A DNA stretch of 64,000 nucleotides from an uncultured Paracoccaceae bacterium. GTDB lineage: Bacteria > Pseudomonadota > Alphaproteobacteria > Rhodobacterales > Rhodobacteraceae. Below the pieces are notes generated by a model, which saw only the letters and a list, made by a program, of their open reading frames with translations, was not told where the DNA came from and did no database searches. The position numbers and the translations under genes were made by a program. This document shows, one piece after another, positions 2,084 through 55,502 of this stretch (position 1 is the stretch's first letter; each line of letters begins with the position of its first letter). The stretch lies in contig CANLVD010000004.1 in assembly GCA_947494445.1 (NCBI GenBank), positions 124,001 to 188,000 of the forward strand, in the 5' to 3' direction.

Positions 2084-2863
2084 TCAAAAGCGAACCAGTG
2101 TTCGGCTCTCTATGCTTTTACGGACAGTGTGAATGTTGGGATCTTCGACCATATCCAGCGCGCTGTGCCCGATGGAAGGGCGACCGCGATTGTCGAAGAT
2201 GTTGAAATAGGCGACCTCATCACGGGTCATGCTCGACATATAGATCCACTGGTGGTTGGGGTTTGCTGCCAGACCCATGATCTGACCCTTGCGGTCCGGA
2301 TAGATCAGATCGAGCAGGATCCAGTCTTCTTCCGCCACACTGTCGGGAAGGATGAAACCAAGTGGGGCCGAGTTGATGGGTGCTTCAGTGGGGCGCCACA
2401 CATTGATGAAGGCATAGTGTCCGGCACTCCATTCGGCAGCCTTCTCTGTGCCCAGAATATCAATAAGGCGTTGTTTGGCGCCGTTCAGGCTGTAGTCGCT
2501 GTGCACATTCCGCGCCGGTTTTCGATCGGCATCGGAATCGTCTACTCGAACGGTATGATCAAAAATCACGACCTCCTTGGCGTCCACTTCTGCGGTCAGT
2601 AATTCCATCAGTTCCGCATCATAAATGCGGCGCCAGTCCCGAACATCGTCAAAAGATGGAATCTGGGTCGGGAAAGTTCTGAACCCGACTGAAGCCGCGT
2701 TGAAAGTGGTGGCCGTCCTGGCAGAGCGTTGGTCTGAAACCTCAACCTTTGTAGTGGCCAGTTCAGGGGCAACGAGATTGCCAATGATCCCGCCGGCATC
2801 AAGCTCAAACGCCTGCCGCTCTGGTTTGTGCACATGGTAATTGACTGTCGCAGTCCGGGTCAT
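2084..2863 (-). CDS. CmcJ/NvfI family oxidoreductase (non-heme Fe/2OG-related hydroxylase or methoxylase)
   Basis: 259 residues. The segments VVIFDHTVR, a histidine pair in ARNVHSDYS (the HxD-like metal site near residues 140-142), AFINVWRP and the late DEVAYFNIFDNR are characteristic of the CmcJ/NvfI family, known from cephamycin methoxylation and fungal GA4-desaturase-like enzymes. Bacterial members are mostly uncharacterised. The start is preceded by AGGAA. A LysR gene diverges 98 bases away and is the likely regulator of this gene and the SDR and oxygenase behind it. Reaction inferred only as oxidation of a small molecule. Confidence 0.75.
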   Translation of the reverse strand: MTRTATVNYHVHKPERQAFELDAGGIIGNLVAPELATTKVEVSDQRSARTATTFNAASVGFRTFPTQIPSFDDVRDWRRIYDAELMELLTAEVDAKEVVIFDHTVRVDDSDADRKPARNVHSDYSLNGAKQRLIDILGTEKAAEWSAGHYAFINVWRPTEAPINSAPLGFILPDSVAEEDWILLDLIYPDRKGQIMGLAANPNHQWIYMSSMTRDEVAYFNIFDNRGRPSIGHSALDMVEDPNIHTVRKSIESRTLVRF

Positions 2864-2961: not shown

Positions 2962-3879
2962 ATGGACACTCAAAGCCTTCGCCTGTTTGTTCTGGCCTGT
3001 GAAACCCTCAACATCAGTGCGGCGGGGCGTGCGCTTGGCATGGCGCCCGCGGTGGCCAGCACGCGCATAGCCAAGTTGGAGCGTCTGGTGGGTGCAGAAC
3101 TGCTCCATCGCTCAACCCGTAAAGTGTCGCTGTCGTCTGAAGGGCAGGATTTTCTGCCCTACGCCCGCGAGATCATCGCCCAGGAAGAAGCCGCCATGGC
3201 AGCGCTTGGCGCAGGTCAGGCGCATATCAGGGGCACACTCCGCTTTGCCGCTCCCAGCTCGTTTGCGCAGCTTTACATCGCTCCGCTTTTGCCGCTGTTC
3301 ATGCAACACTATCCTGATCTGACCCTCGACTTGCATCTGTCCGACACCCAGTTCGATCTGATCGAAGGCAGCTATGACCTTGCTCTGCGCAATTCGGTTC
3401 TCGAGGACAGCAGCCTGACCGCCCGCAAGTTGGCGGATGACAAGCGCATCCTGTGCGCTTCACCCGATTATCTGAACCGGCAAGGCACCCCGAAAACCCC
3501 CGCGGATTTGCGGACGCATCGATTGATCGCCTTTCGCGACCTTGAACCAAGGGGCCTTGTCGGACCTGACGGTGCAACGTCCGATTTTGATCCCAAGCGC
3601 GCAGCCCATCGATTGGTATTGAATGACGGCATGACGCAAAAGCAACTCACCCGCGACGGGGCTGGCATTTCGGTCAATTCCCTGTGGCTCGTTCACGATG
3701 ATCTGACACATGGCAGGTTGCTGCACGTGTTGCCGGAATATGCGCTTGCAGAACAACCGTCGCTTTGGCTGATCTACCCCAAAAGCAACGTGGTCTCAGC
3801 CAAGGTCCGGGTCTTTATTGATTTTCTGATCGACCACATCGGCCGGGCTCAGTTCCAGCGGCAGCCTTACTCGAAGTAG
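2962..3879 (+). CDS. LysR-family transcriptional regulator
   Basis: 305 residues: N-terminal winged helix-turn-helix (about 1-60, with LNISAAGRALGMAPAVAS as the recognition helix region), then a periplasmic-binding-like effector domain (about 90-295). It diverges from the CmcJ-like gene, the common arrangement for LysR proteins that control the neighbouring operon and themselves. No clear Shine-Dalgarno is visible before the ATG, which sits in an A/T-rich stretch, so a leaderless or weakly translated message is possible. Its last 13 bases overlap the convergent GntR gene. Effector unknown. Confidence 0.9.
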   Translation: MDTQSLRLFVLACETLNISAAGRALGMAPAVASTRIAKLERLVGAELLHRSTRKVSLSSEGQDFLPYAREIIAQEEAAMAALGAGQAHIRGTLRFAAPSSFAQLYIAPLLPLFMQHYPDLTLDLHLSDTQFDLIEGSYDLALRNSVLEDSSLTARKLADDKRILCASPDYLNRQGTPKTPADLRTHRLIAFRDLEPRGLVGPDGATSDFDPKRAAHRLVLNDGMTQKQLTRDGAGISVNSLWLVHDDLTHGRLLHVLPEYALAEQPSLWLIYPKSNVVSAKVRVFIDFLIDHIGRAQFQRQPYSK

Positions 3880-4553
3880 TTTCGATGCGTTGTGTAAAGC
3901 GCATCAACCGTTGGTGTCAGACGTTCAAGATGTGTCTGCAACACGCCTACCCCGGTTTCGGCATCGCCCGCAAACAGGGCGTCCAGCAAGGCCACGTGAT
4001 CCGCGTAAAGCGTCTCCATCGTGGATGTGCTGGTCAGTGAGAGCATACACAACCTGTCGACCTGCGCTTTGTTCGCGGCAATGATGTCGAAAGCAAATTC
4101 CTTGCGGGACGCACGACACAGCAATTTGTGAAACTGATAGTCGCTTGCATGGAACGCATCTGCATCTTCGCGAGTGATTGCCTGACGCTGTTGTCGCAAG
4201 TTCGCCTTGAGTTCCGCGTCCACGGCCTTGTCACGGTCCTGTGCTACAGTTCGGACGATCTCCATTTCAATGGCGGCGCGGATGAATCGTGCATTCGAAA
4301 TCAGCTCCCGCGAGAATGGACGCACAACCGTCGCACGTTGAGGACGGATTTGAAGCAGATTCAAGTTGGCAAGGCGGGTGAATGCCTCCCGCACCGGCTG
4401 GCGCGAAAACCCAAAGGATTTGGCCACTTCAGTTTCCGAAATCTTGGTTCCCGGCAACATCTCAAGACTGACGATCTGATCAAACAGTGTCTCAAATACA
4501 AAATCGGTTCCGGTTTTTCTGTCATGGGCTTCCGCAACAGCAGTCATCAGCAT
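3867..4553 (-). CDS. GntR-family transcriptional regulator, FadR/FCD subfamily
   Basis: 228 residues: N-terminal winged helix (about 10-75, with SETEVAKSFGFSRQPVREAFTRL) and a helical FCD ligand domain (about 85-215) with histidines near HASDYQFHK typical of the metal/effector pocket. An AGGA precedes the ATG. It is transcribed away from the SDR-TRAP operon that begins at 4743, so it most likely represses that operon in response to the transported substrate or a catabolite. Confidence 0.9.
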   Translation of the reverse strand: MLMTAVAEAHDRKTGTDFVFETLFDQIVSLEMLPGTKISETEVAKSFGFSRQPVREAFTRLANLNLLQIRPQRATVVRPFSRELISNARFIRAAIEMEIVRTVAQDRDKAVDAELKANLRQQRQAITREDADAFHASDYQFHKLLCRASRKEFAFDIIAANKAQVDRLCMLSLTSTSTMETLYADHVALLDALFAGDAETGVGVLQTHLERLTPTVDALYTTHRNYFE

Positions 4554-4687
4554 TCCTATCCTTGCAACAGGGCCAATGTGACAAAACTTGCGGGGAAAGT
4601 ACAGACAGTTCCGCGGTTACTAGGTTTTCAGAATCCTATAAAATTCAATGATTTGACCGAAATGTAGTTTCCGTCAGTAATTTTTAG

Positions 4688-4702
4688 TTGACTAGTATCC
4701 AA
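4688..4702. promoter_or_regulatory. Candidate GntR (FCD) operator upstream of the SDR-TRAP operon
   Basis: A 15-base imperfect palindrome, TTGACTAGTATCCAA, matches its own reverse complement at 10 of 15 positions. It lies in the gap between the divergent gntR and SDR genes, about 40 bases before the SDR start. FCD-type GntR sites are short TTG...CAA palindromes, which fits; binding is inferred. Confidence 0.35.
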
Positions 4703-4742
4703 GTTTACGAAAACCTTTAACCTCAATCGAGGGAGGCTCGCA

Positions 4743-5531
4743 ATGAACATTGAACTGGCTCGGAAGACAGGATCCGCCGCTCTGTTGCCACTTGAGGGCA
4801 AGGTCGCACTCGTCACGGGTGGGGGCCGGGACATTGGTCAGGCCTGCGCATTCAGTCTGGCCAGAAAGGGAGCCTCGGTCGCGATCAGCTATCACGCCAG
4901 CGCACAAGGTGCGGAACAGACCGTGGCACAGATCGAAGATGAGGGCGGCCGGGCCATGGCCATGGGTGCCGATCTCTCGAAACCCGACAGTGCCAATGCC
5001 TTCGTTGAAGCGGTTGTCGCCCAGTATGGCCACATTGACATTCTGGTGAACAACGCAGGCGGCCTTGTGGCACGCAAGACGATCCTTGAGATGGACCTGG
5101 CCGACTGGCATGCGGTCATGGACCTGAACCTGACCTCTGTCTTCACGATGACCAAGGCCTGCCTGCCACATATGCGGGCTGGTGGAAGCATTGTGAATCT
5201 TGCAAGCCTTGCCGGTCGCGACGGCGGTGGCCCGGGTGCTGTGGCTTATGCCACATCCAAAGGCGCGGTGATGACAATGACCCGGGGGCTCGCCAAGGAA
5301 CTTGGACCTGACATCCGGGTCAACGCCCTTTGTCCCGGCATGATCGATACCGATTTCCACAATGTCTTCACCAAAGATGAGGTCCGCAACAAGGTCGCGG
5401 CCTCTACACCACTGAAACGCGAAGGCGATCCGCAAGAAATCGGAGAGATCGTCGCGTTTCTGGCGACAGAAGGCGCCGGATTTATCAACGGTGCTTGCAT
5501 CGACGCAAATGGAGGCGTCTCGTTCTCGTAG
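4743..5531 (+). CDS. Short-chain dehydrogenase/reductase, FabG-like
   Basis: 262 residues. TGGGRDIG at 25-32 is the cofactor loop, NNAG at 103-106, and the catalytic S155, Y169, K173 triad is complete; the C-terminus (INGACIDANGG) is typical of 3-oxoacyl-ACP reductase-like SDRs acting on sugars, polyols or hydroxy acids. GGGAGG lies 8 bases before the ATG. It is the first gene of a set reading into dctPQM, so it probably oxidises the substrate brought in by the TRAP carrier. Exact substrate unknown. Confidence 0.85.
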   Translation: MNIELARKTGSAALLPLEGKVALVTGGGRDIGQACAFSLARKGASVAISYHASAQGAEQTVAQIEDEGGRAMAMGADLSKPDSANAFVEAVVAQYGHIDILVNNAGGLVARKTILEMDLADWHAVMDLNLTSVFTMTKACLPHMRAGGSIVNLASLAGRDGGGPGAVAYATSKGAVMTMTRGLAKELGPDIRVNALCPGMIDTDFHNVFTKDEVRNKVAASTPLKREGDPQEIGEIVAFLATEGAGFINGACIDANGGVSFS

Positions 5532-5603
5532 AACAAACCCCATTATCAACCCTGCGGCCCCAAGGTCCGTGGACATGACCCGAACTTGAACTGGGAGGAT
5601 AAA

Positions 5604-6587
5604 ATGTTCAATTTCTCACTGAAAACACTCGCCGCAGCAGCGGTTATCGTCAGCGGTGTTTCTGCCGCAAACGCGCAGACAACCCTGCGCGGTGCGAGCA
5701 TGTTCGATGAAGAACATGCCTTCACCAAAACCCTGCGTGAGTTTGAACGCCTTGTTGCCGAGAAATATGAGGGCGATGTCACCTTCGATCTGCGCCTCAA
5801 CGGAGAACTGGGCGTTGAATCTGACTATGTGACCTATCTCAATCAGGGCGTTGCGGTCGATTACACCATTCTGGCACCGTCAAACATGGCTGTGTTCTCT
5901 GAATCCATTCCGTTGATGGACATGCCGTTCCTGTTTCGCGATCTCGACCACTGGAATGCGGTATTGTCGTCTGACGCACTCGCCCCCCTTGAGGATGATC
6001 TGCGCGAAAAAGCAGGCATCGTGATTGTCGGCTACCACGGCGGTGGTGTCCGCAATCTGGCCTCAGCCGAGCCGATCACCAATATGGAAGAACTGGCAGG
6101 TCACCGCATGCGTGTCATGGGTGCGCCCATTCAGGCACAGACGTTTTCTGCTGTTGGTGCCGCGCCTTCTGCGATCGCCTACAACGAGGTCTACAACGCC
6201 ATTCAGACCGGTGTGATCGCAGGGTTTGAGAACGAAGCGGCCTCAATCCAGAACCTAAAGTTCTACGAGGTTGCCCCGCATATCTCGCTCACTCAGCACA
6301 CGATCACGGTGCGGCCAATCGTGATGTCCGCCAAGATCTTCGACGGCCTGCCCGCAGATCTGCAGGCTGCAATCAAGGCCGCGGGCGCTGAGGCCGGCGC
6401 GTTTGGTCGTGCGCTGGAAAGCGGTCAGGACGGCGAAAAACTGCAAGCCATGTCAGACGCCGGCCAGGTTGTGGTGCATCCGTTCAGCGGTCGTGAAAAG
6501 ATGCTTGAACTGGTGCAGCCGGTTCAGGATGCCTACGCGGCAGAACTGGGTGCAACGGAACTGCTGGAAAACATCCGCGGAATGTAA
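5604..6587 (+). CDS. dctP: TRAP transporter solute-binding protein, DctP type
   Basis: 327 residues with a Sec signal peptide ending near ANAQ (about residue 24) for export to the periplasm. The body is a DctP family binding protein: the conserved segment GVRNLAS, the arginine region around RVMGAPIQ that clamps a substrate carboxylate, and NEVYNAIQTGVIAGFENE. The start at 5604 is preferred over an in-frame ATG 18 bases upstream because GGGAGG precedes it. Followed by the membrane subunits dctQ and dctM. Ligands of this family are mostly carboxylates; this one is not defined. Confidence 0.9.
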   Translation: MFNFSLKTLAAAAVIVSGVSAANAQTTLRGASMFDEEHAFTKTLREFERLVAEKYEGDVTFDLRLNGELGVESDYVTYLNQGVAVDYTILAPSNMAVFSESIPLMDMPFLFRDLDHWNAVLSSDALAPLEDDLREKAGIVIVGYHGGGVRNLASAEPITNMEELAGHRMRVMGAPIQAQTFSAVGAAPSAIAYNEVYNAIQTGVIAGFENEAASIQNLKFYEVAPHISLTQHTITVRPIVMSAKIFDGLPADLQAAIKAAGAEAGAFGRALESGQDGEKLQAMSDAGQVVVHPFSGREKMLELVQPVQDAYAAELGATELLENIRGM

Positions 6588-6599
6588 TCCGATCACCAC

Positions 6600-6633
6600 A
6601 AGGGGCGGCGCGCACATTGCTCGCCGCCCTTTT
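6600..6633 (+). terminator. Intercistronic hairpin after dctP
   Basis: AGGGGCGGCG pairs with CGCCGCCCT (one bulged G), followed by four T. It lies between the binding-protein gene and dctQ. In transporter operons such hairpins reduce read-through or protect the upstream message, so that the binding protein is made in excess. Seen directly; the effect is inferred. Confidence 0.55.
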
Positions 6634-6668
6634 GATGCACAAGAAGACTAACCGGGGAGGCGCATCAC

Positions 6669-7163
6669 ATGATTGGCAACGCGCTGGAATTTTTCTGCAA
6701 GGGCTTGCGCATATTGCTCGGCGTCCTGATGGGCGCCCTCGCTGTGCCGGTCGCCATGCAGGTGATCTCTCGCTACACCGGCCTGATCCCCACCTATCTT
6801 TGGACAGAGGAACTGGCGACCTTCATTTTCGTCTGGATTGTCATGATCGGATCAATGGTCGCCGTCTGGGATGGAACTCACTTCGACGTGCGGGTGCTGA
6901 AAGATGCAGCATCTCCGCTGATGCGCCTTGTGCAAAACGGAGTGGTCCATGTCGGGATCATGATCTTCGCACTTCTGTTTCTGATCTACGGCTTCGAATA
7001 CGTCGCTTTTGGCAACAACCAACGCTCCGTCATGATGCGCGCAAATCTTGCGGTCACCTATGTTTCGGTACCCATCGCAGGCGCGGTCTGGCTCATTTTC
7101 GCCAGCTACCGACTGACCGAAGAGATCGCGGCGTTCCGTAACAGATCGGTCCCAACACAATGA
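6669..7163 (+). CDS. dctQ: TRAP transporter small membrane subunit, DctQ type
   Basis: 164 residues with four hydrophobic segments (about 15-35, 50-70, 90-115, 130-150) and the conserved WTEELATFIFVW motif between helices 1 and 2. GGGAGG precedes the ATG. It forms the membrane complex with DctM; its stop overlaps the dctM start (ATGA), indicating translational coupling. Confidence 0.9.
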   Translation: MIGNALEFFCKGLRILLGVLMGALAVPVAMQVISRYTGLIPTYLWTEELATFIFVWIVMIGSMVAVWDGTHFDVRVLKDAASPLMRLVQNGVVHVGIMIFALLFLIYGFEYVAFGNNQRSVMMRANLAVTYVSVPIAGAVWLIFASYRLTEEIAAFRNRSVPTQ

Positions 7164-8467
7164 TCCTGGATACCGCCACCGCAAGCAGCATGCTGATCTG
7201 CGGCTTTCTTGTGCTTGTCCTGTTGCGCATCCCGGTCGCATTCGCGCTTGGCTTGTCGACGATCCCGGTTGTTCTGCTGGAACTGCGTTTGACGCCCTTC
7301 ATCGTGTTGGACCGCATGTTCCAGTCCTACAACTCCTTCATCTTGCTGGCTGTGCCCTTCTTCCTGCTGGCGGCCAACCTGATGAATTCCGGCAAGGTCA
7401 CGGACCGGTTGATCGAGCTTGCCCGTGTGCTGACAGGCTGGCTGCCCGGTGGGTTGGGCCACGTCAATGTGGCTGTGTCCATGCTGTTTGCCGGCATCTC
7501 GGGCTCCTCCACGGCTGACGCTGCGGGCATCGGCAAGATCCTGATCCCGGCCATGCAGAAAGAGGGATATGACACCCGGTTTGCCGTTGCGATCACCGCC
7601 TGTTCTTCCGTGATGGGGGTGATTATACCGCCCTCCATCCTGATGATTGTCTGGGGCGGCGTGATGCAGGTCTCCGTTGGGGCGCTTTTTCTGGGTGGGG
7701 CAATCCCGGGCCTGATGATCGGACTGGCTCTGATGGCAACGGTCTATGGTTTTGCCAAGGTCCGAAACTATCCGGTCACGGCAACCCCGAATTGGGGGGA
7801 GTTCTGGGCCGCGTGGAAAGGCGCTGCACTTGCCCTGCTCACACCGATTTTCGTCATCGGCGGCATCGTCGGCGGCATCGTTACGCCCACCGAAAGTGCC
7901 ATCATCGCGGCAGGCTATGCGCTGATCCTCGGCATGTTCGTCTATCGCACCGTGAAACCAAAGGATCTGGGCTTCATCCTTTTCGACACCGCGCGGTTCG
8001 CCGCGATCTCGCTTTTTGCCATCGGCACTGCATCCGCCTTTGGCTGGCTGTTGTCCTTCTACAATGCGCCCCGGCTGATCGTCAGCCTGATCACAGCGTG
8101 GGAGTTCGGACCCTTCGGGACGGCAATGATCATCGCGCTGCTGTTCCTGATCTTCGGGCTTTTCATCGATGCGATCCCAACCATCATCATTCTCGGGACC
8201 GTGCTCATGCCCGTGGCACAGGCCGGTGGAATTGACCCCATCGCCTTTGCGATCATCGGCATCGTGTCGCTTGCGTTCGGGCTGGTGACCCCGCCTTACG
8301 GGCTCTGCCTGTTGATTTCGGCGGCCATTGGCGGATTGAACGTGGTGCAGGTCCTCAAGGAGGTTGCGATCATTCTCGCACCGATGCTGTTGATCCTGGT
8401 CCTGTTGGCCGCCGTTCCGGAAATCGTCTTGTGGTTGCCGAAGCTGGTCATGCCGCAAAGCTTCTGA
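7160..8467 (+). CDS. dctM: TRAP transporter large permease subunit, DctM type
   Basis: 435 residues, about 12 membrane segments, with the family signatures FAGISGSSTADAAGIG (about 110-125), IPPSILMIVWGG (about 155) and LTPPYGLCLLI-like VTPPYG (about 377). It is the Na+-driven translocating subunit. The gene ends directly against the convergent Rieske gene (stop codons abut at 8467/8468). A long reverse-strand open frame across this gene is an antisense shadow of GC-rich coding DNA. Confidence 0.93.
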   Translation: MILDTATASSMLICGFLVLVLLRIPVAFALGLSTIPVVLLELRLTPFIVLDRMFQSYNSFILLAVPFFLLAANLMNSGKVTDRLIELARVLTGWLPGGLGHVNVAVSMLFAGISGSSTADAAGIGKILIPAMQKEGYDTRFAVAITACSSVMGVIIPPSILMIVWGGVMQVSVGALFLGGAIPGLMIGLALMATVYGFAKVRNYPVTATPNWGEFWAAWKGAALALLTPIFVIGGIVGGIVTPTESAIIAAGYALILGMFVYRTVKPKDLGFILFDTARFAAISLFAIGTASAFGWLLSFYNAPRLIVSLITAWEFGPFGTAMIIALLFLIFGLFIDAIPTIIILGTVLMPVAQAGGIDPIAFAIIGIVSLAFGLVTPPYGLCLLISAAIGGLNVVQVLKEVAIILAPMLLILVLLAAVPEIVLWLPKLVMPQSF

Positions 8468-9547
8468 TCAGCCGTCTATCGCTTCGCGCATCCAGCGTTG
8501 CAGGTGCATGACGGGATGCTCCGAATTCACGCCGCCTTTGGGGTCAACAACCAATGGCCCCGGAACATAGCCACGGGATTTAAGGCCGCGCTGGACGGAT
8601 TCAACCAGACGGATATCCTCTTCCACCGTCGTTTCCCGATCCTGAACGGCCAGTTGCCGGATCTTGGGGTCGTCCACGCCACCCACCGAGTACCAGCCGC
8701 GCCAGACCACGACGCTGTCGGCATCAGCTGCCCGCCAATGATAGGTGTTCAACACGTTGCCCGGGTAGACCTGAAACGAAAACATCGGCCACAGGAACCA
8801 ACTGGAATATTCGTGACTGTGGGCAAAGCCTGAATTTATGTCATAGGTCATCTGATCCAGCGCCTGACACTCCGTTGTGTGGCGCAGGCACTTGCCTTGA
8901 GGTTGGATGTCATAGGTTTCGGGCTTGACGACACCATTGGCAAAGGTCGGATGGTTCAACGAGCAGTGATAGCATTCCGAGTAATTTTCGACCGAAACCT
9001 TCCAGTTGCACTTTTCAGGGATGCTCACCCATTCCAGCGGCTTCAGGTCAACCCAGTTTGGCACCCATTCCTCAAGCTCGGCGCGCGCATCTGGAAACCA
9101 CTCCTCCATTGGTGCTGCGTCAGGGTCCAGATTGACGAAGACAAAGCCCAGGAACGCCTCAGCCCTCACTTCGGTCAGGCAAATCTCCGACGCATCAAAG
9201 CCCTCTACAGCTTTGATATTCGGCCCGGCACGCAACTCACCAGTCAATTCATAGGTCCAGGCGTGATAAGGACAGACCACAACGCGGGTTGTGCCCATTC
9301 CGGTGACCAACTGATGTGCGCGGTGCTGGCAGACGTTGTAGAATACCCGGATCCTGTCATCGCGTCCGCGGATTGCAAACAGGCTCTCTCCGGCAATCTC
9401 GAAAGTGGCATAGTCGCCAACATTGGCCACTTGCGACGCATGGCACCCGAATTGCCAGGTCCGGGCCAGAAGCCCTTCAGTTTCCAGCCGGAATACTTTT
9501 GGGTCGGTGTAATACCGTGCAGCCAGCGAGCGGACGGGTCCGGTCAT
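8468..9547 (-). CDS. Rieske non-heme iron oxygenase, alpha subunit (CntA/betaine-demethylase-like)
   Basis: 359 residues. Rieske [2Fe-2S] ligands C73-x-H75 and C92-x2-H95; the mononuclear iron region ENYSECYHCSLNHP gives H194 and H199 with E191 as the probable bridging residue, an arrangement known from carnitine monooxygenase CntA and related quaternary-ammonium oxygenases rather than naphthalene-type enzymes. Length fits CntA. It is in an operon with the upstream rpiR gene (ATGA overlap). With the DMGDH-like gene next door it most likely demethylates a betaine. The reductase partner it would need is not in the window. Confidence 0.85.
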   Translation of the reverse strand: MTGPVRSLAARYYTDPKVFRLETEGLLARTWQFGCHASQVANVGDYATFEIAGESLFAIRGRDDRIRVFYNVCQHRAHQLVTGMGTTRVVVCPYHAWTYELTGELRAGPNIKAVEGFDASEICLTEVRAEAFLGFVFVNLDPDAAPMEEWFPDARAELEEWVPNWVDLKPLEWVSIPEKCNWKVSVENYSECYHCSLNHPTFANGVVKPETYDIQPQGKCLRHTTECQALDQMTYDINSGFAHSHEYSSWFLWPMFSFQVYPGNVLNTYHWRAADADSVVVWRGWYSVGGVDDPKIRQLAVQDRETTVEEDIRLVESVQRGLKSRGYVPGPLVVDPKGGVNSEHPVMHLQRWMREAIDG

Positions 9548-10431
9548 TTCTCCCCCGCATGGTACAGCCCCAATTGGTGGCGCCGTTTGTGAAAGGTCTC
9601 GACCCGATCAACGATCTCATCACTTGCCACCGCAATCACGAAAGACAACAGCGTTTCAAGCAAGGCAATTATGCTGACCGATGAGGGGAAGAATTGTGGC
9701 GTGTCGCAGGAGATGACAAAGCCATGGTCTGCTGCCCGGATGATGGGACTGGCCGGACTATCCGAGATTGCAATGATCTTCATTCCCTGCTCATGCGCCC
9801 GTTCCACCGCCTCCACGACCTCAGCCCTGTAAGGCCGGCAGGTAATCGCAATCAGCGTGTCGGCCTTGTCGGCCCAGGCCAAATCATCAATGGCGTTTGA
9901 GCCAGCACGCGGGATCGCATGAAACCGGACCATCCCGGTTGAGGCAAGATATGTGAAATTGCGCGCGCTTGAGTTGTTCACCCCCACGCCCAGCGTGAAC
10001 ACATTGTTGGACTGCCAGATCGTCTCGGCCGCAACCTTCAGATCCTCCGCTGAAATGCCTGCGAAGGTGTCCTCGATGTTGCTCAGCGCGCCTTGGACCA
10101 TATCCGCATAAAGCCTGCCAAGCTCGCCGGATTTGGAGATGTCCTGCAACCACCGCGCCCGGTCAGGAAAATCCGCCGCACCGCGTCGGATTGCATCGCG
10201 GAACGGCTCGCGGAAATCGTCATAGCCCTCAAAACCGACCTGACGTGCCATACGGACCAGAGTGTTGGGTTTGACCTTCGCAGCCTCGGCGATCTCACGC
10301 ACGGTCGAGACACCCACATCTCGCGGGTTTTCCAGCACATAGGTCGCAGCTTTGCGCGCCTCAGGCGTCAGCTCGGGCAGCTCGTCGGCAAGGCGGTCCA
10401 GAATCGAACTTGATACATTTGTCCCAATCAT
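9544..10431 (-). CDS. RpiR-family transcriptional regulator (HTH_6 + SIS)
   Basis: 295 residues: N-terminal helix-turn-helix (about 1-80, VSTVREIAEAAKVKPNTLVRMARQVG) and a C-terminal SIS phosphosugar-type domain (about 130-270). It is transcribed divergently from the FAD demethylase (68-base gap) and is first in an operon with the Rieske gene, so it is the likely switch for both directions. RpiR proteins near amino-acid and betaine catabolism genes are common in this clade, so the ligand need not be a sugar phosphate. Confidence 0.9.
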   Translation of the reverse strand: MIGTNVSSSILDRLADELPELTPEARKAATYVLENPRDVGVSTVREIAEAAKVKPNTLVRMARQVGFEGYDDFREPFRDAIRRGAADFPDRARWLQDISKSGELGRLYADMVQGALSNIEDTFAGISAEDLKVAAETIWQSNNVFTLGVGVNNSSARNFTYLASTGMVRFHAIPRAGSNAIDDLAWADKADTLIAITCRPYRAEVVEAVERAHEQGMKIIAISDSPASPIIRAADHGFVISCDTPQFFPSSVSIIALLETLLSFVIAVASDEIVDRVETFHKRRHQLGLYHAGEK

Positions 10432-10499
10432 GATTGACGATGGTACTTTTGTTCGCTTAGCGTGTCGAGAGAAAAGGCTAACCGAAAAGGATCATTCCC

Positions 10500-12944
10500 G
10501 TGGCAACAGAATTCCCGACCCATGCCCGTGTTGTCATCGTCGGCGGTGGCGTCATGGGTGTGGGTTTGGCCTATCATCTGGGCCACGAAGGCTGGGGCGC
10601 AGATACGGTTCTGCTGGAAAAGGCCGAACTGACATCCGGCAGCACGTGGCACGCAGCAGGTCAGATCACCCATTCCACTTCAAGCTTCGGCCTTGGCAAA
10701 TGCGTGGATTACAACATCGGTCTGTATTCCGGCGGGCTGGAAGCTGAAACCGGGCAGCCCGTCACGTGGCACGGCTGCGGGTCGTTTCGGCTGGCATACA
10801 CCGAGGATGAAATGGACTGGCTGCGCCATACCCTGTCCGTCGGCCGGGCGCTTGGGTTCAACATCGATCTGGTAGGCACCAAAGACATCGCAAGACTGCA
10901 CCCGTTTTACAATCTCGACGGGGTTCTTGGCGCATTGCACACCCCTGATGACGGCCATGTGGATCCGACCAATGTGACAATGGCGATGGCTGCTAGCGCA
11001 CGGCAAAAGGGCGTGCGGATCATCCGGCGCTGCAGGGCTACGAACATCACGCAACTGCCGTCAGGCGAATGGCAGGTTGAGACGGAGAAAGGCATTATCA
11101 CCTGCGAGCATGTGGTCAACGCAGGCGGCACCTATGCGCGGCAAATGGGCGAATGGTCAGGCCTGCAACTGCCGATGACGTCGATGACCCATCACTACTT
11201 CGTCACCGAGCCCGTGCCTGAATTCGAAGTACTTGAGGCAGAATTGCCGGTGATCCGCGACGACAAGAAGGTGTCCGGCTACATCCGCATGGAACAGAAA
11301 CGCGGCCTCATCGGGATCTACGAGAAGGAAAACCCGAACTCCGTCTGGCACGATCATTGCCCGTGGGACTATGAGAACTGGCTGTTCGATGCCGATTACG
11401 ACAGGGTCATGCCCTATCTTGAGGAAAGCCTGAACCGCATGCCGATCTTTGCCGATCTGGGCATCCAGCGCGAAGTGCACGGCGCAATCAGCCACCCACC
11501 CGACGGAAATCCGCTGATCGGTCCCGCACCCGGCGTGCGCAACTACTGGTGCTGCTGCGGCACGCAGATCGGCATCGGCTGGGGGCCGGGCCTGACCCGT
11601 GAACTGGCCCGCTGGATGGTGTATGGCGCGGCCAACATATCGATGCGCGACTATGATCCGCGCCGCTTTGGCAGCTACGCCACTAAAGATTGGCAAGTGG
11701 TGAAGGCCGAAGAAGACTACTGCCTGCGCCACGAAATCCCGTTTCCGCATTTCAACCGCCTCGCTGGACGGCCTGTAAAACCCTCCCCGCTTCATGATTT
11801 GCTGAAATCCAAAGGTGCCGTGCACGAAGAGGTCTACGGCTTCGAACGCCCGCGCTTCTTTGCACGCGGCATCGCGCAGGAAGATCACTACACGTTCAAC
11901 CGCTCACCTGTAGATGACATGGTCGCAGCCGAGGTCAAAGCCGTGCGCGAGACCGTGGGCATCATGGATGTCACCGCCTTCACCAAGGTGCTGGTGGAAG
12001 GACCCGATGCCTATGCCCTGCTCGATCGGCTGACAGCGAACCGGATGCCGCGGAAAGTGGGCTCGATCACCCTGACCCACATGCTGAACCGCGCAGGCCG
12101 GATCGAGTTGGAAACGACCATCGTGCGCATGGCCGACGACCAGTTCTATCTCGTTTGTGCCGCCTTCTTCGAGCAGCGTTTGCTGGATCACCTGAACCAC
12201 CAGCGAAGTGATGAGACTGTCACGATCACAGCCCTGTCCTCAGACTGGTCTGCCCTGTCCCTGAACGGCCCCAAATCACGGGAAGTTCTTGCCGCCTGCA
12301 CCAAAACTGATCTGTCAAACGCCGGCTTCAGGTGGCTGTCCGCCCGACAAATCACCGTTGCAGGTCACAACATCTGGGCCTTCCGCATGTCCTATGCCGG
12401 TGAGTTGGGCTGGGAGTTTCACATGCCCAATGCCGCCTGTCTGGATGTCTACACCGCCCTTTGGGCCGCCGGGCAAGCCTGCGATATCGCGGACTACGGG
12501 TCCTTCGCGATGAACGCGATGCGCATGGAAAAGGGCTTCAAAGGTGCCGGAGAGCTGACCAACGAGGTCACGCTGGCAGAGGCAGATGTGCTGCGGTTTG
12601 CGCGCACCGACAAGGATTATCTGGGCCGCGACCAGACCCTGAAAACCGATCTGCCCTGGGTCTGCGCCTATCTCGAAATCGAACCTGACGGCAAGGCAGA
12701 CGGCCATGGCGGCGAAGCAGTGCTTATGGACGGCAAGCTTGTGGGATCAACAGCCTCTGTCGCCTTTGGGCCGAGCGTTGGAAAGATCCTTGCGTTTGCC
12801 TACATCCACCCGGAAGCAGCCAAGCCGGGCACCAAATTAGAGGTCGTGATCCACAGTAAGCCGCGCGCCGCGCGAGTTCTTGGTGAACCCGCATATGATC
12901 CGCAAAGTTTGAGGCCGCGCACCGATGTGTTGGTGCCAGCATGA
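10500..12944 (+). CDS. FAD-dependent dimethylglycine/sarcosine dehydrogenase-like demethylase with GcvT-like domain
   Basis: 814 residues, GTG start. N-terminal DAO domain with the dinucleotide motif GGGVMGVGLAYHLG (about 15-28) and SGSTWHAAG, in which H51 is at the position of the covalent 8-alpha-histidyl-FAD link of DMGDH. The central FAO_M linker is about 370-430 and the C-terminal GcvT and GcvT_C domains about 435-805 for tetrahydrofolate capture of the released one-carbon unit. The reaction expected is oxidative N-demethylation giving methylene-THF. Divergent from rpiR and followed 37 bases later by an enolase-superfamily gene. Full length for the family. Confidence 0.88.
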   Translation: MATEFPTHARVVIVGGGVMGVGLAYHLGHEGWGADTVLLEKAELTSGSTWHAAGQITHSTSSFGLGKCVDYNIGLYSGGLEAETGQPVTWHGCGSFRLAYTEDEMDWLRHTLSVGRALGFNIDLVGTKDIARLHPFYNLDGVLGALHTPDDGHVDPTNVTMAMAASARQKGVRIIRRCRATNITQLPSGEWQVETEKGIITCEHVVNAGGTYARQMGEWSGLQLPMTSMTHHYFVTEPVPEFEVLEAELPVIRDDKKVSGYIRMEQKRGLIGIYEKENPNSVWHDHCPWDYENWLFDADYDRVMPYLEESLNRMPIFADLGIQREVHGAISHPPDGNPLIGPAPGVRNYWCCCGTQIGIGWGPGLTRELARWMVYGAANISMRDYDPRRFGSYATKDWQVVKAEEDYCLRHEIPFPHFNRLAGRPVKPSPLHDLLKSKGAVHEEVYGFERPRFFARGIAQEDHYTFNRSPVDDMVAAEVKAVRETVGIMDVTAFTKVLVEGPDAYALLDRLTANRMPRKVGSITLTHMLNRAGRIELETTIVRMADDQFYLVCAAFFEQRLLDHLNHQRSDETVTITALSSDWSALSLNGPKSREVLAACTKTDLSNAGFRWLSARQITVAGHNIWAFRMSYAGELGWEFHMPNAACLDVYTALWAAGQACDIADYGSFAMNAMRMEKGFKGAGELTNEVTLAEADVLRFARTDKDYLGRDQTLKTDLPWVCAYLEIEPDGKADGHGGEAVLMDGKLVGSTASVAFGPSVGKILAFAYIHPEAAKPGTKLEVVIHSKPRAARVLGEPAYDPQSLRPRTDVLVPA

Positions 12945-12981
12945 AGCGCGCACCCATTGATCAGCCGCGCACGTCAAGGGC

Positions 12982-14085
12982 ATGAAAGTTTCGCGCATCA
13001 CTCTTTGGTCTGTGGACCTGACAAGCCATGAAACTTACTACATGGCTGAGGGGAAAACCTGTGCAACCGTCAAAACCCACGTGCTTTGCCTTGAGACGGA
13101 CACTGGCTTGAAGGGTTGGGGCGAAGTTTGCCCGATCCCCCACTATCTGCCTGCCTTCGCCGATGGTGTGCCAAGTGCCATCACCGAACTGGCAGCGCAG
13201 ATTCTGGGCATTTCGCCCTTTGGCATCGACGCACCGATGCGCAAGCTGGACGGGTTCCTGCCCGGACACGCGCACGTAAAATCCATCGTTGATATCGCAC
13301 TTTGGGACCTTTTCGGGAAAGCCACTGATCAACCGCTCTACGCGCTTTTAGGAGGGCGGACGCGCGCTGACATGCCGCTTTATCATTCCATCACCTGCAT
13401 CGAACCTGATGAGATGGCGCGGATCGCGCGCGAAGCCTATGCCACGGGCATTCGGCAGTTTCAGGCAAAACTGGGCGCGGATGCAGATTGGAAGGCAGAC
13501 GCCGAGCGCTTGATCAAAGTGCGCGAAGCGGTCGGGGATGGACCAATTGTCTATGGCGATTGGAATTGTGGAGCATCCAAGCTTCATGCCACGCGCACTG
13601 GGCGCGCCGTTGCGCATTTGGATGTCATGCTGGAACAACCATGCAAAACACTGGAAGACTGTGCCGCTGTCCGCAATGCCACTGGGCTTGCAATGAAACT
13701 TGACGAGAGCACCCATGACATGGCGACACTTCTGCAGGCCCATGCATTGGGTTGTCTCGATGCGGTGGCTTTGAAACTCTCTAAATTTGGCGGGCTGTCC
13801 GCGATGCGCCGGGCGCGTGATCTCACTGTGCACCTTGGGGCCGAAATTTGCGCCGAATGCACATGGGGGTCGGACATAGTCACAGCGGCTTCACTGCATT
13901 TCGCAGCCTCAACCCCGCAGGCCTCGCTGCTCAATACCTGCGATCTGTCCGGTTATGTGGCTCCCCGTCTGTGCCCAGACGCACCCGTCAGATCGCATGG
14001 GCGCATTGCCCCACCCGAAGGACCCGGCCTTGGCATAACCCCTGACATGGACGTACTTGGAAAACCGATTCTGGAACTGACTTAG
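12982..14085 (+). CDS. Enolase-superfamily enzyme, similar to hydroxyproline-betaine epimerase / cis-3-hydroxyproline dehydratase
   Basis: 367 residues. The barrel carries K163 (QAKLG) and K265 (LKLSKFGG) as the two opposing catalytic lysines, with Mg2+ ligands D193, E219 and D241/E242. This two-lysine pattern is that of 1,1-proton-transfer members (epimerases) and related dehydratases; the motifs resemble 4R-hydroxyproline-betaine 2-epimerase and cis-3-hydroxy-L-proline dehydratase. It follows the DMGDH-like gene on the same strand, which fits betaine catabolism by epimerisation then demethylation. No symbol is given because substrate cannot be read from sequence. Confidence 0.75.
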   Translation: MKVSRITLWSVDLTSHETYYMAEGKTCATVKTHVLCLETDTGLKGWGEVCPIPHYLPAFADGVPSAITELAAQILGISPFGIDAPMRKLDGFLPGHAHVKSIVDIALWDLFGKATDQPLYALLGGRTRADMPLYHSITCIEPDEMARIAREAYATGIRQFQAKLGADADWKADAERLIKVREAVGDGPIVYGDWNCGASKLHATRTGRAVAHLDVMLEQPCKTLEDCAAVRNATGLAMKLDESTHDMATLLQAHALGCLDAVALKLSKFGGLSAMRRARDLTVHLGAEICAECTWGSDIVTAASLHFAASTPQASLLNTCDLSGYVAPRLCPDAPVRSHGRIAPPEGPGLGITPDMDVLGKPILELT

Positions 14086-14327
14086 CTTTCGCAAAAATTC
14101 ACCACACGGTCTGAATGGATCGACCGCGCCCGCGCCGTTTTGCGCCAGCTGCCAGATGGGGTGACCATCTTTGCCAATAACGCCTGAGGGTTCGAGCTTG
14201 CCGAAACGGGCTTTGCATTACCATGTTTCACAGTTCGCAAAGCTCAGGCTGCAGCTTATAGAGAGCACCAAGGGCCATGGCTTCAGTCAGCGAAACCCCG
14301 AGCTTCTGCCTCTGTTCCGCCTTTTCT

Positions 14328-15815
14328 TTACACCAAAGCTGCCAGCTTGAGCCGTTGGATCTTTCCCGAGGGCCCCTTGGGCAACTCCGTCATGAAATGA
14401 ATGCAATCGGGCGATTTGAATTTGCCGAGGCGTTGCCTGCAAAGGTCGATCAGTGCGGCTTCTGACAATTCTGATCCGGGTTTGACGCTGACCGCAGCTT
14501 CCACCGTTTCGCCGTAGCTGTTGCATGGGCGGGCGAATGCCGCCGCTTCGATGATATCGGGTTCAGAGTACAGAACCTCGTCGATTTCGCGTGGAGCGAT
14601 GTTTTCACCACCCTTGATGATCAGCTCCTTCAGACGACCTGTCACGAAAACATAACCGTCTTCATCTATGTGACCCAGATCCCCGGTGCGCAGCCAGTCC
14701 CCGGCAAATGTATCAGCCGTTGCTTCAGGATTGTGCAGGTACTCGACCATGACATTGGGGCCGCGAACGGCAATTTCTCCCTCCTGCAAAGGCGGTGCAG
14801 GGGTCAGATCCGGTGTCAGTATGCACACCTCATTGCCATAGCCTATTCCCGGCGATCCGATTTTTCTGACAAGCGGCGGCAAAGGGTTTGACAGGATTTG
14901 AGCTGCAGTTTCTGTCAGCCCCATGGTCTCAATTATCGGAACTTTGAAGCGATTTTCAAACGCCGACTGCGTTTCTACAGCAAGCGCAGAAGATGCAGAA
15001 CGACCGAAGCGCAAGCGATCACAGCTCCCTGCGCTTGGTTCAATGTCGCTGTGCAGCAGATGGCTGATGATCGTAGGAACGACAGAGAACCATGTAACCT
15101 TTGCAGTATCGGCATGTTCCCAGAATTTGCTGGTGGAGAACCGCGACGACATCGCCAGCGATCCACCCGATACAAGTGCCCCCATCATCGTCACGCAAAG
15201 CCCGTTGATGTGATAGATCGGCAAAACACAAAAACCACGATCAACGGGTGAAAGGTCATGTGCGATGGCTGTGGTCCATCCGCCGGCCAACAGGCTGGAA
15301 TGGTTGTGGACCACTCCCTTTGGCTGACCCGTCGTTCCCGAAGTATACATCAACAGAGCATGTTGATCGGGTCCGAAATCCCGCAAGGCCACTCGATGCT
15401 GCAACATGTCATCTGTCAGAATGGTCAGCACGGATGGCGCAATCCTTTTGATCGCCTCGGTCTGGGCATCATGCACGAAAGCAAAGCGGGCACCACTGTG
15501 GTCGAGCGCATAGGCAATCGCGTCCGGACCCGCAGCCAAATTGATCATCGTAGCCCGAAATCCACCATAGAGGGCCGCATAGACGGCCAAAACGCCGTCC
15601 TTTCCATTGGGGTGAGCGATCGCAACGCTTTCGCCTTGTTCAATCCCCAGACCAACCAGACCCTGCGCCATGGCGCTTGCGGTGTCGCGCAAACTGCGCC
15701 AGTCAATACTTTCCCCGGTTTCCGGAAAGATCATCGCGGTATCACTGGTCGCCGCACGGGCATCAAGCCAGTCCTTCACGGTGCCTTCAGGTGGCGTTGC
15801 CTTGTCAACGATCAT
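14328..15815 (-). CDS. sauT: AMP-forming acyl-CoA ligase, probable sulfoacetate-CoA ligase (SauT-type)
   Basis: 495 residues. P-loop-like adenylation motif YTSGTTGQPKG at 157-167, A5 motif GLTETA near 298, A8 hinge region GDLGHIDEDG..GRLKELIIKGGENI (about 377-405), and the C-terminal catalytic lysine in GPSGKIQR (about 484). It is directly coupled to the upstream aldehyde dehydrogenase gene (ATGA overlap). The pairing with an acylating dehydrogenase of SauS type is the argument for sulfoacetate as substrate: SauT makes sulfoacetyl-CoA, SauS reduces it. A ligase for another short acid is possible. Confidence 0.7.
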   Translation of the reverse strand: MIVDKATPPEGTVKDWLDARAATSDTAMIFPETGESIDWRSLRDTASAMAQGLVGLGIEQGESVAIAHPNGKDGVLAVYAALYGGFRATMINLAAGPDAIAYALDHSGARFAFVHDAQTEAIKRIAPSVLTILTDDMLQHRVALRDFGPDQHALLMYTSGTTGQPKGVVHNHSSLLAGGWTTAIAHDLSPVDRGFCVLPIYHINGLCVTMMGALVSGGSLAMSSRFSTSKFWEHADTAKVTWFSVVPTIISHLLHSDIEPSAGSCDRLRFGRSASSALAVETQSAFENRFKVPIIETMGLTETAAQILSNPLPPLVRKIGSPGIGYGNEVCILTPDLTPAPPLQEGEIAVRGPNVMVEYLHNPEATADTFAGDWLRTGDLGHIDEDGYVFVTGRLKELIIKGGENIAPREIDEVLYSEPDIIEAAAFARPCNSYGETVEAAVSVKPGSELSEAALIDLCRQRLGKFKSPDCIHFMTELPKGPSGKIQRLKLAALV

Positions 15816-17215
15816 TGACCAGCCTCGCGCCAGTAGTCGTCAAAGATGTTCGACAGCGTGGGTTCATTGGCTGGTATTTCGCGCACGATCTTCGTGGTTT
15901 GCATGAAGTGCCGCCAGTGGAGATTGGTATCGATGGAATTACCCCCCCACGATCCACACCCCATCGAGAGAGAAAACGGCATGCCATTGGTAAACGACCC
16001 GCCTGTCGCAAAGGTGTGCGCCTGGTTCACGATAACGCGGCTTGTCGGGATTGCCTTGGCAAGTGTGAGGGGACGGTCCTGCGTTTGCGTGTGCAAGCCA
16101 ACGGAATGACCCGCCCCCTGATACATCTCGATATCATGGGTGATGCGAACAGCATCATCGAAATCACGGGCGCGGTAGACCGTCAGGACACGACTGAGTT
16201 TCTCTCCCGACAACGGGTGATCAGCGCCGATGCCGTTCGTCTCGACCGCAAGATAGGCGGTGTCGGCTGGAACCTCACCTGTCAGGCCAAGAGCCGCGAT
16301 CATTTTATCTGCGTCTTGGGCGATGGCTTGCGGATTCAAATGGCCCTTCACCCATAGCTTTGAAGTAACCTTGCTTTCGTCAGTGATCAGTGCGCCGCCT
16401 GTACGCGCCATCTCGGCCGCGAAGGCGTCGTAGATTTCATCGACGACAACGACTGCGTTTTCGGAAGAACAGGATGTGGCATTATCAAAGGTCTTGGAGG
16501 CTTTGATTTTGTCCGCTGCGGCTGCCAGATCAGCCGTTTCATCCACGATAACAGCGACATTTCCCGCACCAACAGCCAGAGCGGGTGTACCGGATGTATA
16601 GGCGCGTTTGACGTTGTTCTGACTGCCGGTAACCACGATCAAATCGGCGATTTCAAGCAGGCGCTGGGTCTTCTCCTTTGATCCGCGACCGGGGATCATC
16701 TGGACCAGATCGCGGTTGATCCCCAGTTTGTCAAATTCGGCATGAATATAGCCCAGAAGCGCTTCACATGTGGGCACGCCCTTGGGCGAGGGTGACACCA
16801 CGATTGCATTGCCACATTTCAACGCATTGATGATGTTGTTTGCGGGCGTGGCGCCGGGGTTTGTCGATGGGACAACCGCGCCGATCACACCAATTGGACG
16901 GGCGATTTCAGTGATGCCGGTCGCGGGATCTTCACTGATGATCCCGTAGGTCTGTGCATCCCGAATATCGCGCATCAGACCAAGAGTTTTCCGATGGTTC
17001 TTAGTGATCTTGTCAGGCACATTTCCAAGACCTGTGGTCTCGACTGCGAGTTCTGCCAAGTGACGATTGCGGGCAGGTTCCATGATTGCCCAGGCAGCGG
17101 CCTGTGCTGCGCGGTCATATGCCTGCTGTGATCCATTGCGTTCAAAGGCGCCTTGTGCGGCACGCGCACGCGCAACGATGGCTTCAACCTCTGCAATGGG
17201 ATCAACCGTGGTCAT
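15812..17215 (-). CDS. sauS: Acylating (CoA-dependent) aldehyde dehydrogenase, probable sulfoacetaldehyde dehydrogenase (SauS-type)
   Basis: 467 residues, an acylating aldehyde dehydrogenase of the acetaldehyde/propionaldehyde dehydrogenase branch. The nucleophile is C249 in NATSCSSENA; PSTNPGATPANNIINALKCGNAI (about 116-137) and VTGSQNNVKRAYTSG are branch signatures. The overall sequence and its ligase partner resemble SauS of sulfoacetate degradation, which reduces sulfoacetyl-CoA to sulfoacetaldehyde with NADPH. The next enzyme, sulfoacetaldehyde acetyltransferase (Xsc), is not in the window. It is 57 bases downstream of the tctC-type binding-protein gene, after a perfect hairpin. Confidence 0.75.
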   Translation of the reverse strand: MTTVDPIAEVEAIVARARAAQGAFERNGSQQAYDRAAQAAAWAIMEPARNRHLAELAVETTGLGNVPDKITKNHRKTLGLMRDIRDAQTYGIISEDPATGITEIARPIGVIGAVVPSTNPGATPANNIINALKCGNAIVVSPSPKGVPTCEALLGYIHAEFDKLGINRDLVQMIPGRGSKEKTQRLLEIADLIVVTGSQNNVKRAYTSGTPALAVGAGNVAVIVDETADLAAAADKIKASKTFDNATSCSSENAVVVVDEIYDAFAAEMARTGGALITDESKVTSKLWVKGHLNPQAIAQDADKMIAALGLTGEVPADTAYLAVETNGIGADHPLSGEKLSRVLTVYRARDFDDAVRITHDIEMYQGAGHSVGLHTQTQDRPLTLAKAIPTSRVIVNQAHTFATGGSFTNGMPFSLSMGCGSWGGNSIDTNLHWRHFMQTTKIVREIPANEPTLSNIFDDYWREAGQ

Positions 17216-17237
17216 GGGAGTATTCCTGTATGGAGAT

Positions 17238-17265
17238 GCGCAGCACCAGATATTTGGTGCTGCGC
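17238..17265 (-). terminator. Perfect intercistronic hairpin between tctC and sauS
   Basis: GCGCAGCACCA and TGGTGCTGCGC form an 11-bp perfect stem with a 6-base loop. No T-run follows in the direction of transcription, so it is more likely an mRNA-stabilising or processing element behind the binding-protein gene than a full terminator. Confidence 0.6.
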
Positions 17266-17272
17266 AATGTGT

Positions 17273-18244: not shown

Positions 18245-18282
18245 AGTATCCTCCCTAGGGTTATATCTGTCGCCTTTGCGAT

Positions 18283-18747
18283 TCAGAAAAAGATCTCTCG
18301 CGGTGTGAAAACATTCAGCAATTGCGCAAAGAGACCGTACATGACCGCCATGAATCCAGCGGTGATCAGGATCCGTTTGCCCCAGCTTTTGATGTCCGAA
18401 TGCGGGGCCGGATCATAAAGTGAAAGCAACACGAAAAACGCGATGGTGGTTGCGGTGTAGAAGCCAAGCGACTTGGCTGCCCAATAGACGTAGATGATTG
18501 TCACAATCAAGCCGGGCAGCATGTTGCGCATGGCCTGGCCGTTGATGCCGTTGCCGACCTTGGTGCGGCCCAGAACGGCTTTGACGAAGGTCCAGATTGC
18601 CAGAACCGCAAAGACCGATGAAATCAGGCGCGGAAAAATGAAAGCGTCCGCGGGTTCCTGTGTAAAACTGATATAAGCAATGCTGACGCCCACACATGCA
18701 ATCAGGCCCGAAGCAATGATATGTTGATTGCGTGGCAGATCGGTCAT
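18283..18747 (-). CDS. tctB: Tripartite tricarboxylate transporter small membrane subunit, TctB type
   Basis: 154 residues with four hydrophobic segments; poorly conserved in sequence as usual for TctB, but identified by size, topology and position. Its start overlaps the tctA stop (ATGA), so translation is coupled. Confidence 0.85.
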   Translation of the reverse strand: MTDLPRNQHIIASGLIACVGVSIAYISFTQEPADAFIFPRLISSVFAVLAIWTFVKAVLGRTKVGNGINGQAMRNMLPGLIVTIIYVYWAAKSLGFYTATTIAFFVLLSLYDPAPHSDIKSWGKRILITAGFMAVMYGLFAQLLNVFTPREIFF

Positions 18748-55110: not shown

Positions 55111-55125
55111 GGCAGGCTCCGAAAT

Positions 55126-55485: not shown

Positions 55486-55502
55486 ATGTCTTCTCCGTCA
55501 GT

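Follow-up and report, generated by a model that had tools for sequence, protein, structure and literature searches.

Positions 4743–14085 of the DNA analysed here (the window, 64,000 nucleotides of contig CANLVD010000004.1 from an uncultured Paracoccaceae bacterium) hold two adjoining but unrelated sets of genes, not the single betaine-catabolic island proposed in a preliminary description of the sequence. The left unit (3867–8467) is made up of a GntR regulator, whose gene lies just beyond the interval first described, a short-chain dehydrogenase/reductase (SDR) and a TRAP transporter. The right unit (8468–14085) comprises a Rieske oxygenase, an RpiR regulator, a flavoprotein resembling dimethylglycine dehydrogenase (DMGDH) and an enolase-superfamily enzyme. 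The two units end convergently, with the stop of DctM at 8467 and that of the Rieske gene at 8468. We consider it probable that the right unit is the core of a roseobacter cluster that catabolises an N-methylated betaine-type amino acid, with the left unit serving hexuronate-type uptake.

The main open reading frames (ORFs) of window positions 1–20 kb were translated and then scanned against protein families. Every gene named in the preliminary description proved to be an intact ORF at or beside the position given there, and the family assignments hold. What that description had overlooked is the remnant of a class-III aminotransferase gene just downstream of the enolase gene (about 14092–14226, forward strand).

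Gene linkage in related genomes

The enolase belongs to a clade (59–84% identity) found in 45 of 295 family genomes, this one included, with a clear gap down to about 40% identity. Linkage to the enolase was counted in two sets of loci. The first consisted of wide stretches around the orthologues in 40 of the 44 other family genomes, leaving out the window and genomes G236, G139, G099 and G115; several of the 40 stop at a contig edge. The second was drawn from the best 80 of 357 stretches (near relatives), of which the 65 that reach 17,000 bases were taken as full-length; its flanks are 8 kb, so that any Rieske gene farther out would escape. Genes were mapped by tblastn at an identity above 45% in the 40-locus set and of at least 50% in the 65-locus set, where cupin and GFA genes were counted from at least 30%.

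The genes of the right unit travel with the enolase. In the 40-locus set a Rieske gene was found near it in 33 loci, RpiR in 33, the DMGDH-like gene in 35 and the class-III aminotransferase in 38; the corresponding numbers in the 65-locus set are 57, 65, 64 and 63. At the same thresholds GntR, SDR, the solute-binding protein, DctQ, DctM and SauS (encoded on the far side of the enolase gene, see below) were found near the enolase in none of the 40 and none of the 65 loci; weaker SDR matches (30–37%) in a few loci fall below the counting thresholds. Because TRAP, SDR and GntR genes never accompany the enolase cluster in either set, the left half must be regarded as a separate unit.

The conserved order is Rieske–RpiR and, divergently, DMGDH–enolase–aminotransferase. 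Optional members are CMD and ALDH genes on the Rieske side (23 and 10 of the 65 loci) and, between the DMGDH-like and enolase genes, a medium-chain dehydrogenase/reductase (MDR) gene (48), a DddQ-like cupin (32) and two more enolases, ENOL6 (51) and ENOLb (29); a GFA gene occurs in seven. In the tree the accessory enolases group with PDB entries 2qdd and 2rdx, and one scores 733 bits to 3eez of Silicibacter pomeroyi. Among the carriers of the cluster are Ruegeria, Shimia, Tateyamaria, Aliiroseovarius, Lentibacter, Planktomarina (metagenome-assembled genomes) and Sulfitobacter. Across the class, the clade is present at an identity of at least 61% in 8 of 385 genomes (this one included), six of them from other families, and four of these six loci (L193, L195, L196 and L198) keep the core of Rieske, RpiR, DMGDH and aminotransferase genes, in L198 at 37–57% identity.

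Other genes recur in the flanks. The one candidate recurrent transporter seen by eye is an ABC-type pair in 21 and 19 flanks, and haem genes, likewise recognised by eye, lie downstream of the cluster in 20 and 16 loci (in both cases one each in the 40-locus set); the haem genes could have pointed to a HemL-like aminotransferase, but we read them as probable synteny of one genus. Some clusters (8 loci; for example, L136:6617–6901) contain a 94-residue ORF that is weakly (R)-mandelonitrile lyase-like (26 of 140 bits), and some carry sulfotransferase-like and arylmalonate-decarboxylase-like genes on the Rieske side (L039:274–1828).

Predicted N-demethylases

The Rieske oxygenase (8468–9547, reverse strand), the proposed first N-demethylase, has the CxH...CxxH cluster motifs and an ECYHC...H motif. 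Its best PDB match is the carnitine monooxygenase CntA (6y8j, 207 bits) and its nearest NCBIfam model is GbcA, in keeping with the CntA-like Rieske protein of the preliminary description. The RpiR gene (9544–10431, reverse strand; Pfam HTH_6 and SIS) overlaps the Rieske gene by four bases. The flavoprotein (10500–12944, forward strand), proposed as the second N-demethylase, is nearest to dimethylglycine dehydrogenase (4pab, 472 bits) and has the DAO, FAO_M, GCV_T and GCV_T_C domains of a DMGDH-type FAD/folate enzyme. The previously noted H51 is indeed present at the flavin-link position, within SGSTWHAAG, and a covalent link to the flavin is predicted.

As the closest solved structures of both proteins are N-demethylases and their genes are linked to the enolase gene, the pair is best read as serving to demethylate a betaine-like compound at its nitrogen. 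This part of the preliminary description is borne out by the likeness to CntA/GbcA and DMGDH, together with linkage to a two-lysine enolase in dozens of genomes.

A conserved element at the divergent start

A 42-bp element lies at the divergent start of the RpiR and DMGDH-like genes in all 102 extracted regions (window included), which represent 75 distinct sequences. It contains an imperfect inverted repeat (best symmetry centre 5.17, next best 3.39) and a TTGAC hexamer, and is a candidate RpiR operator and promoter. The site in the window (10413–10454, forward strand) scores 71.8 bits and the lowest of the 102 scores 49.4 bits; the scoring matrix was built from these very regions, which had been lined up on an anchor (TTGAC plus flank) picked after the sequences had been viewed. 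Part of the conservation may be coding, since the left part of the element overlaps the first RpiR codons.

No second site was found in the window at a scan threshold of 8, and a pattern search of the genome with up to three mismatches returned one site (control, 0). Of three clusters scanned from outside the family, L195 scores 53.3 bits and L193 39.7 bits, and L198 has none at a threshold of 8. At L066, where no RpiR gene was found, the best score is only 14.7 bits. Through this element, RpiR would control both divergent operons.

The cluster is split in this genome

The remnant downstream of the enolase gene is truncated and has an internal deletion and a premature stop: aminotransferase residues 2–18 are joined directly to about 69–101, followed by the stop. 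An intact aminotransferase gene lies 92 kb away (contig C4:230516–231784; 73% identity to the copy in L034), with a divergent CMD match (80% identity) beside it. In relatives that have both, CMD and the aminotransferase flank the cluster on opposite sides, so the pair looks like a cluster whose middle has moved out, and from this gene order we infer a relocation of the cluster middle. An MDR gene is found on the same contig (C4:317711–318790, 74% identity); its surroundings (L085:6207–10791) include genes for a DUF3726 protein and an Ldh_2 dehydrogenase and a 560-residue ORF that matches no Pfam or NCBIfam model. The two accessory enolases have no close match among the best three of seven other enolase loci in this genome. 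In G001, the only further genome searched within the genus, the aminotransferase match is 37% only and no enolase match was found at 1e-60.

The window copy might be a decaying remnant that has lost its pathway function in this strain, as the aminotransferase remnant, the scattering of the cluster along one contig, the absence of DddQ from the genome and the lack of a close match to the accessory enolases in the three loci tested would suggest. We think this unlikely: none of the four ORFs (Rieske, RpiR, flavoprotein and enolase) is shortened, catalytic motifs were checked in three of them, the control element is retained at 71.8 bits, and intact aminotransferase, CMD and MDR genes are present elsewhere in the genome.

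DddQ as an optional member

The cupin inside the Ruegeria lacuscaerulensis cluster (L105) scores 284 bits to DddQ (4la2); the DMSP_lyase family test was made on this cupin and that of L039. The orthologous Rieske–RpiR–DMGDH–enolase core of such DddQ-type clusters is present in the window, and the DddQ member is not, PF16867 (the DddQ-type cupin) having no match anywhere in this genome. Searches of an open-licence library listed no paper that connects DddQ with a pathway of Rieske or enolase enzymes; one on methanesulfonate genes (PMC5068391) was listed with both terms.

The presence of DddQ raises the prospect of a cluster for dimethylsulfoniopropionate (DMSP) or dimethylsulfoxonium propionate (DMSOP), in which the N-demethylase homologues would act on sulfonium compounds and DddQ would mark the true substrate. 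Besides the R. lacuscaerulensis protein and the cupins in 32 of 65 loci, published work speaks for it. According to the available part of PMC5395565, DMSP induces dddQ, and release of dimethyl sulfide (DMS) by dddQ mutants is down by 97% in Ruegeria pomeroyi and by 20% in Roseovarius nubinhibens, results that favour a sulfonium role at least of DddQ itself; an excerpt of PMC10686828 adds that most DddQ enzymes cleave DMSOP, and more actively than DMSP. On the other side, the Michaelis constant of DddQ for DMSP is 22 mM (same part of PMC5395565), DddQ is optional and unmatched in this genome, and the core enzymes resemble N-demethylases. An excerpt of PMC3338564 describes the R. pomeroyi dddQ and R. 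nubinhibens dddQ1/dddQ2 genes as close neighbours of an MDR028 gene (SPO1593 and ISM_14095, respectively), and reports that an acrylate-sensitive E. coli mutant was not corrected by ISM_14095. We regard a DMSP or DMSOP cluster as quite unlikely.

The enolase forms a clade of its own

The enolase (12982–14085, forward strand; Pfam MR_MLE) has both lysines reported for it, K163 and K265, together with the metal ligands D193, E218 and D241 and the MR/MLE fold of the superfamily. From the tree, residues and model, we propose that it is a racemase, epimerase or dehydratase acting at an alpha carbon. A tree of 34 rows resolves five groups: HpbD; the window clade; ENOL6 with 2qdd; cis-3-hydroxyproline dehydratase with 4mgg; and ENOLb with 2rdx. 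HpbD (4e8g and 2pmq) and the window clade are separated with 100/100 each, although the program warns that these two long branches meet. At aligned position 320, HpbD and seven ENOL6 rows have Trp, all 11 window-clade rows have Cys, and the dehydratase and ENOLb have Thr; at position 321, the window clade has Asp in common with the dehydratase and ENOLb. We take the Trp at 320 to be a cation–pi cage for a quaternary nitrogen. If that role holds, ENOL6 would act on the quaternary form and the window enolase on a less methylated one. A Cys at position 293 was tried as a mark of the family and discarded, as some members have Asp there.

The model of the enolase (predicted local distance difference test score 90.8) aligns best, and equally well, with 4mgg (Z 50.7, 39% identity) and 4izg (Z 50.3), with 4e8g at Z 49.8, so that structure decides neither for a dehydratase nor for an epimerase. 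An excerpt of PMC5144071 reports that the Labrenzia dehydratase catalyses both dehydration and epimerisation. By sequence, the enolase is closest to cis-3-hydroxyproline dehydratase (261 bits), yet it scores 320.3 bits with the model for that enzyme, NF043002, whose cut-off is 500. We rejected an assignment as cis-3-hydroxyproline dehydratase on this score and the separate clade, and one as an HpbD orthologue on the separate clade and the Cys in place of Trp at 320. The window enolase is best described as a family of its own with no assigned role.

The preliminary description had compared the enolase with the hydroxyproline-betaine epimerase class, a placement that the separate branch and the Cys at 320 do not support. 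An Hpb (hydroxyproline- or proline-betaine) catabolic cluster exists in Paracoccus and Pelagibaca (PMC4113996 and PMC5144071, both in excerpt), and a pathway of this kind, in which an HpbD-type epimerase would act before demethylation, shares with the right unit the enolase subgroup, the two lysines, the linkage of Rieske and flavoprotein demethylases (homologues by type) and the Z-scores to 4izg and 4e8g. That the right unit encodes it is nevertheless very unlikely: the clades are distinct, with the caveat on long branches given above, the Trp of HpbD is retained in ENOL6 and not in the window enolase, and the structural match to 4mgg is tied. Furthermore, no 4-hydroxyproline enzyme of those named in the excerpt of PMC4113996 turned up among the annotated conserved members, and a class-III aminotransferase is conserved in their place.

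The left unit

The left unit begins with the GntR/FCD regulator gene (3867–4553, reverse strand; Pfam FCD and GntR), followed on the forward strand by the SDR oxidoreductase (4743–5531; Pfam adh_short_C2), the TRAP solute-binding protein (5586–6587), the small permease DctQ (6669–7163; Pfam DctQ) and the large permease DctM (7160–8467; Pfam DctM, TIGR00786). The binding protein scores 515 bits to 4nx1/4ovp, the TRAP binding protein of Sulfitobacter sp. NAS-14.1 (EFI-510292), with 71–75% identity over the mature protein. We take the ligand of 4nx1/4ovp to be, probably, a hexuronate.

Relatives of the binding protein (E up to 1e-100) occur in 13 of 198 family genomes, this one included. Among the ten relatives' stretches that were read, GntR, SDR and TRAP genes stand together in L181, L182, L183 and L185 and weakly in L189. 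In L185, one of three relatives with ORFs listed, a UxuA mannonate dehydratase gene lies between those of the SDR and the binding protein. The unit is probably a sugar-acid uptake system of hexuronate type, and would combine import with one redox step.

We rejected as extremely improbable the preliminary view that the whole of 4743–14085 is one island joining TRAP, SDR and GntR to the Rieske, DMGDH-like and enolase genes, with the TRAP system importing the betaine, as only gene adjacency in this genome speaks for it, against the convergent ends of DctM and the Rieske gene, the 0 of 40 and 0 of 65 loci at the thresholds used, a TRAP unit that stands alone in relatives (once with UxuA), and an RpiR element with no second copy in the window at the scan threshold.

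Proposed pathway

We infer the reactions of the right unit, their order, their regulation and the class of substrate as follows. The Rieske oxygenase would hydroxylate an N-methyl group of a quaternary amine, with release of formaldehyde, using a reductase assumed to be encoded elsewhere in the genome, where it was not searched for. The DMGDH-like flavoprotein would transfer further N-methyl groups to tetrahydrofolate. The enolase would abstract an alpha proton, leading either to a 1,1-proton transfer or to beta-elimination as in cis-3-hydroxyproline dehydratase. Finally, the class-III pyridoxal phosphate enzyme, encoded elsewhere in this genome, would remove or move the freed amine. Conservation of this aminotransferase favours a beta- or omega-amino product over plain proline-type substrates.

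Several observations weigh against this assignment. The Rieske protein scores 152.3 bits with the GbcA model NF058607, short of its curated cut-off of 670, and no electron-transfer partner adjoins its gene in the window, the neighbours being DctM and RpiR. Two of the six other-family loci keep the enolase and lack the demethylases (L194, with an ENOL6-like gene, and L197, with the enolase alone), and the window enolase clade has no member of known substrate. No transporter is found among the annotated recurrent neighbours, an annotation outside which several recurrent ORF groups lie (c7, c9, c12, c13, c15, c16, c19, c21 and c22, several of them taken for antisense ORFs). The element is missing at a threshold of 8 from L198, the most divergent full cluster, and at a threshold of 4 from the remote aminotransferase and MDR regions (L084 and L085). 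The putative hexuronate ligand of the left unit draws on the presumed ligand of 4nx1/4ovp and a single UxuA neighbour. The induction of dddQ by DMSP and the loss of DMS release in its mutants, described above, point in the same direction.

It is possible, if doubtful, that the cluster represents a marine pathway, so far undescribed, whose substrate is an N-methylated beta-amino-acid betaine, and that DddQ is native to this pathway and not to DMSP; in that case DddQ would release DMS as a side reaction. One candidate substrate, a guess with a very slim chance of being right, is the head group of the algal betaine lipid diacylglyceryl hydroxymethyltrimethyl-beta-alanine (DGTA), 2-(hydroxymethyl)-N,N,N-trimethyl-beta-alanine. 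It would offer a chiral alpha carbon for the enolases, a beta onium group like that of DMSP for DddQ and N-methyl groups for the Rieske and DMGDH-like proteins, and would become a beta-amino acid suited to the class-III aminotransferase.

The cluster sets Rieske, DMGDH-like, enolase and aminotransferase genes in a fixed order with one regulator, and places DddQ, which has been studied as a source of DMS, among N-demethylases as a member that may be present or absent. Identifying the substrate would give a role to three enolase clades, two of them with solved structures whose titles give no function, and would put to the test whether DMSP or a nitrogen analogue of it is what DddQ evolved to act on.

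Other genes in the window

Beyond the right unit lies a sulfoacetate-type operon (14328–20273, reverse strand) that encodes an acylating sulfoacetaldehyde dehydrogenase, SauS (676 bits, cut-off 600), a CoA-ligase-like protein, TctC, TctB and a 509-residue membrane protein judged by eye to be TctA. Upstream of the left unit is a CmcJ/NvfI family oxidoreductase gene (2084–2863, reverse strand; 246 bits), surrounded by genes for an SDR, a LysR regulator and an OGFOD2-like protein. Folate one-carbon genes of glycine cleavage (52267–56936, reverse strand), namely the P protein (947 residues) and a 477-residue T-protein-like ORF, are 38 kb away from the demethylation cluster. After a tRNA-Thr gene, the G+C content rises from about 0.55–0.59 to 0.61–0.64 (57776–64000), in a segment that includes genes for a chromate transporter, a glyoxalase-like protein and an EamA transporter.

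Comparison with known systems

The closest counterpart of the left unit's binding protein, at 71–75% identity of the mature protein, is the Sulfitobacter protein 4nx1/4ovp. The Rieske protein has CntA as its top PDB match, whereas it falls far under the equivalog cut-off for GbcA. In CntAB the reductase gene cntB is adjacent to cntA, in contrast with the window, where the Rieske gene has no adjacent reductase gene. The enolase shares with cis-3-hydroxyproline dehydratase the closest sequence, a structural match (tied with HpbD) and Asp at 321, and differs from it in clade, in its score below the model cut-off and in residues 25, 27, 54, 135, 138, 139, 194, 196, 320 and 329.

The Hpb cluster of Paracoccus and Pelagibaca, which we take to contain a Rieske oxygenase and a flavoprotein, resembles the right unit in linking these to a two-lysine enolase and in the combined chemistry of epimerisation and N-demethylation. 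The right unit differs in having another enolase clade and a DMGDH-type folate flavoprotein, and its cluster type in being under RpiR, with a conserved class-III aminotransferase and no 4-hydroxyproline enzymes among its annotated members. A homarine pathway, mentioned in an excerpt of PMC13390433, was also considered for the cluster. To the dddQ loci of Ruegeria pomeroyi and Roseovarius nubinhibens, the clusters of relatives are alike in the DddQ-matching cupin (284 bits) and, judged by the published description, in the linked MDR gene, while the window copy is a minimal core lacking DddQ, MDR and the accessory enolases. The right unit is best read as a variant form of betaine-demethylation cluster, one that was already partly visible in the dddQ literature.

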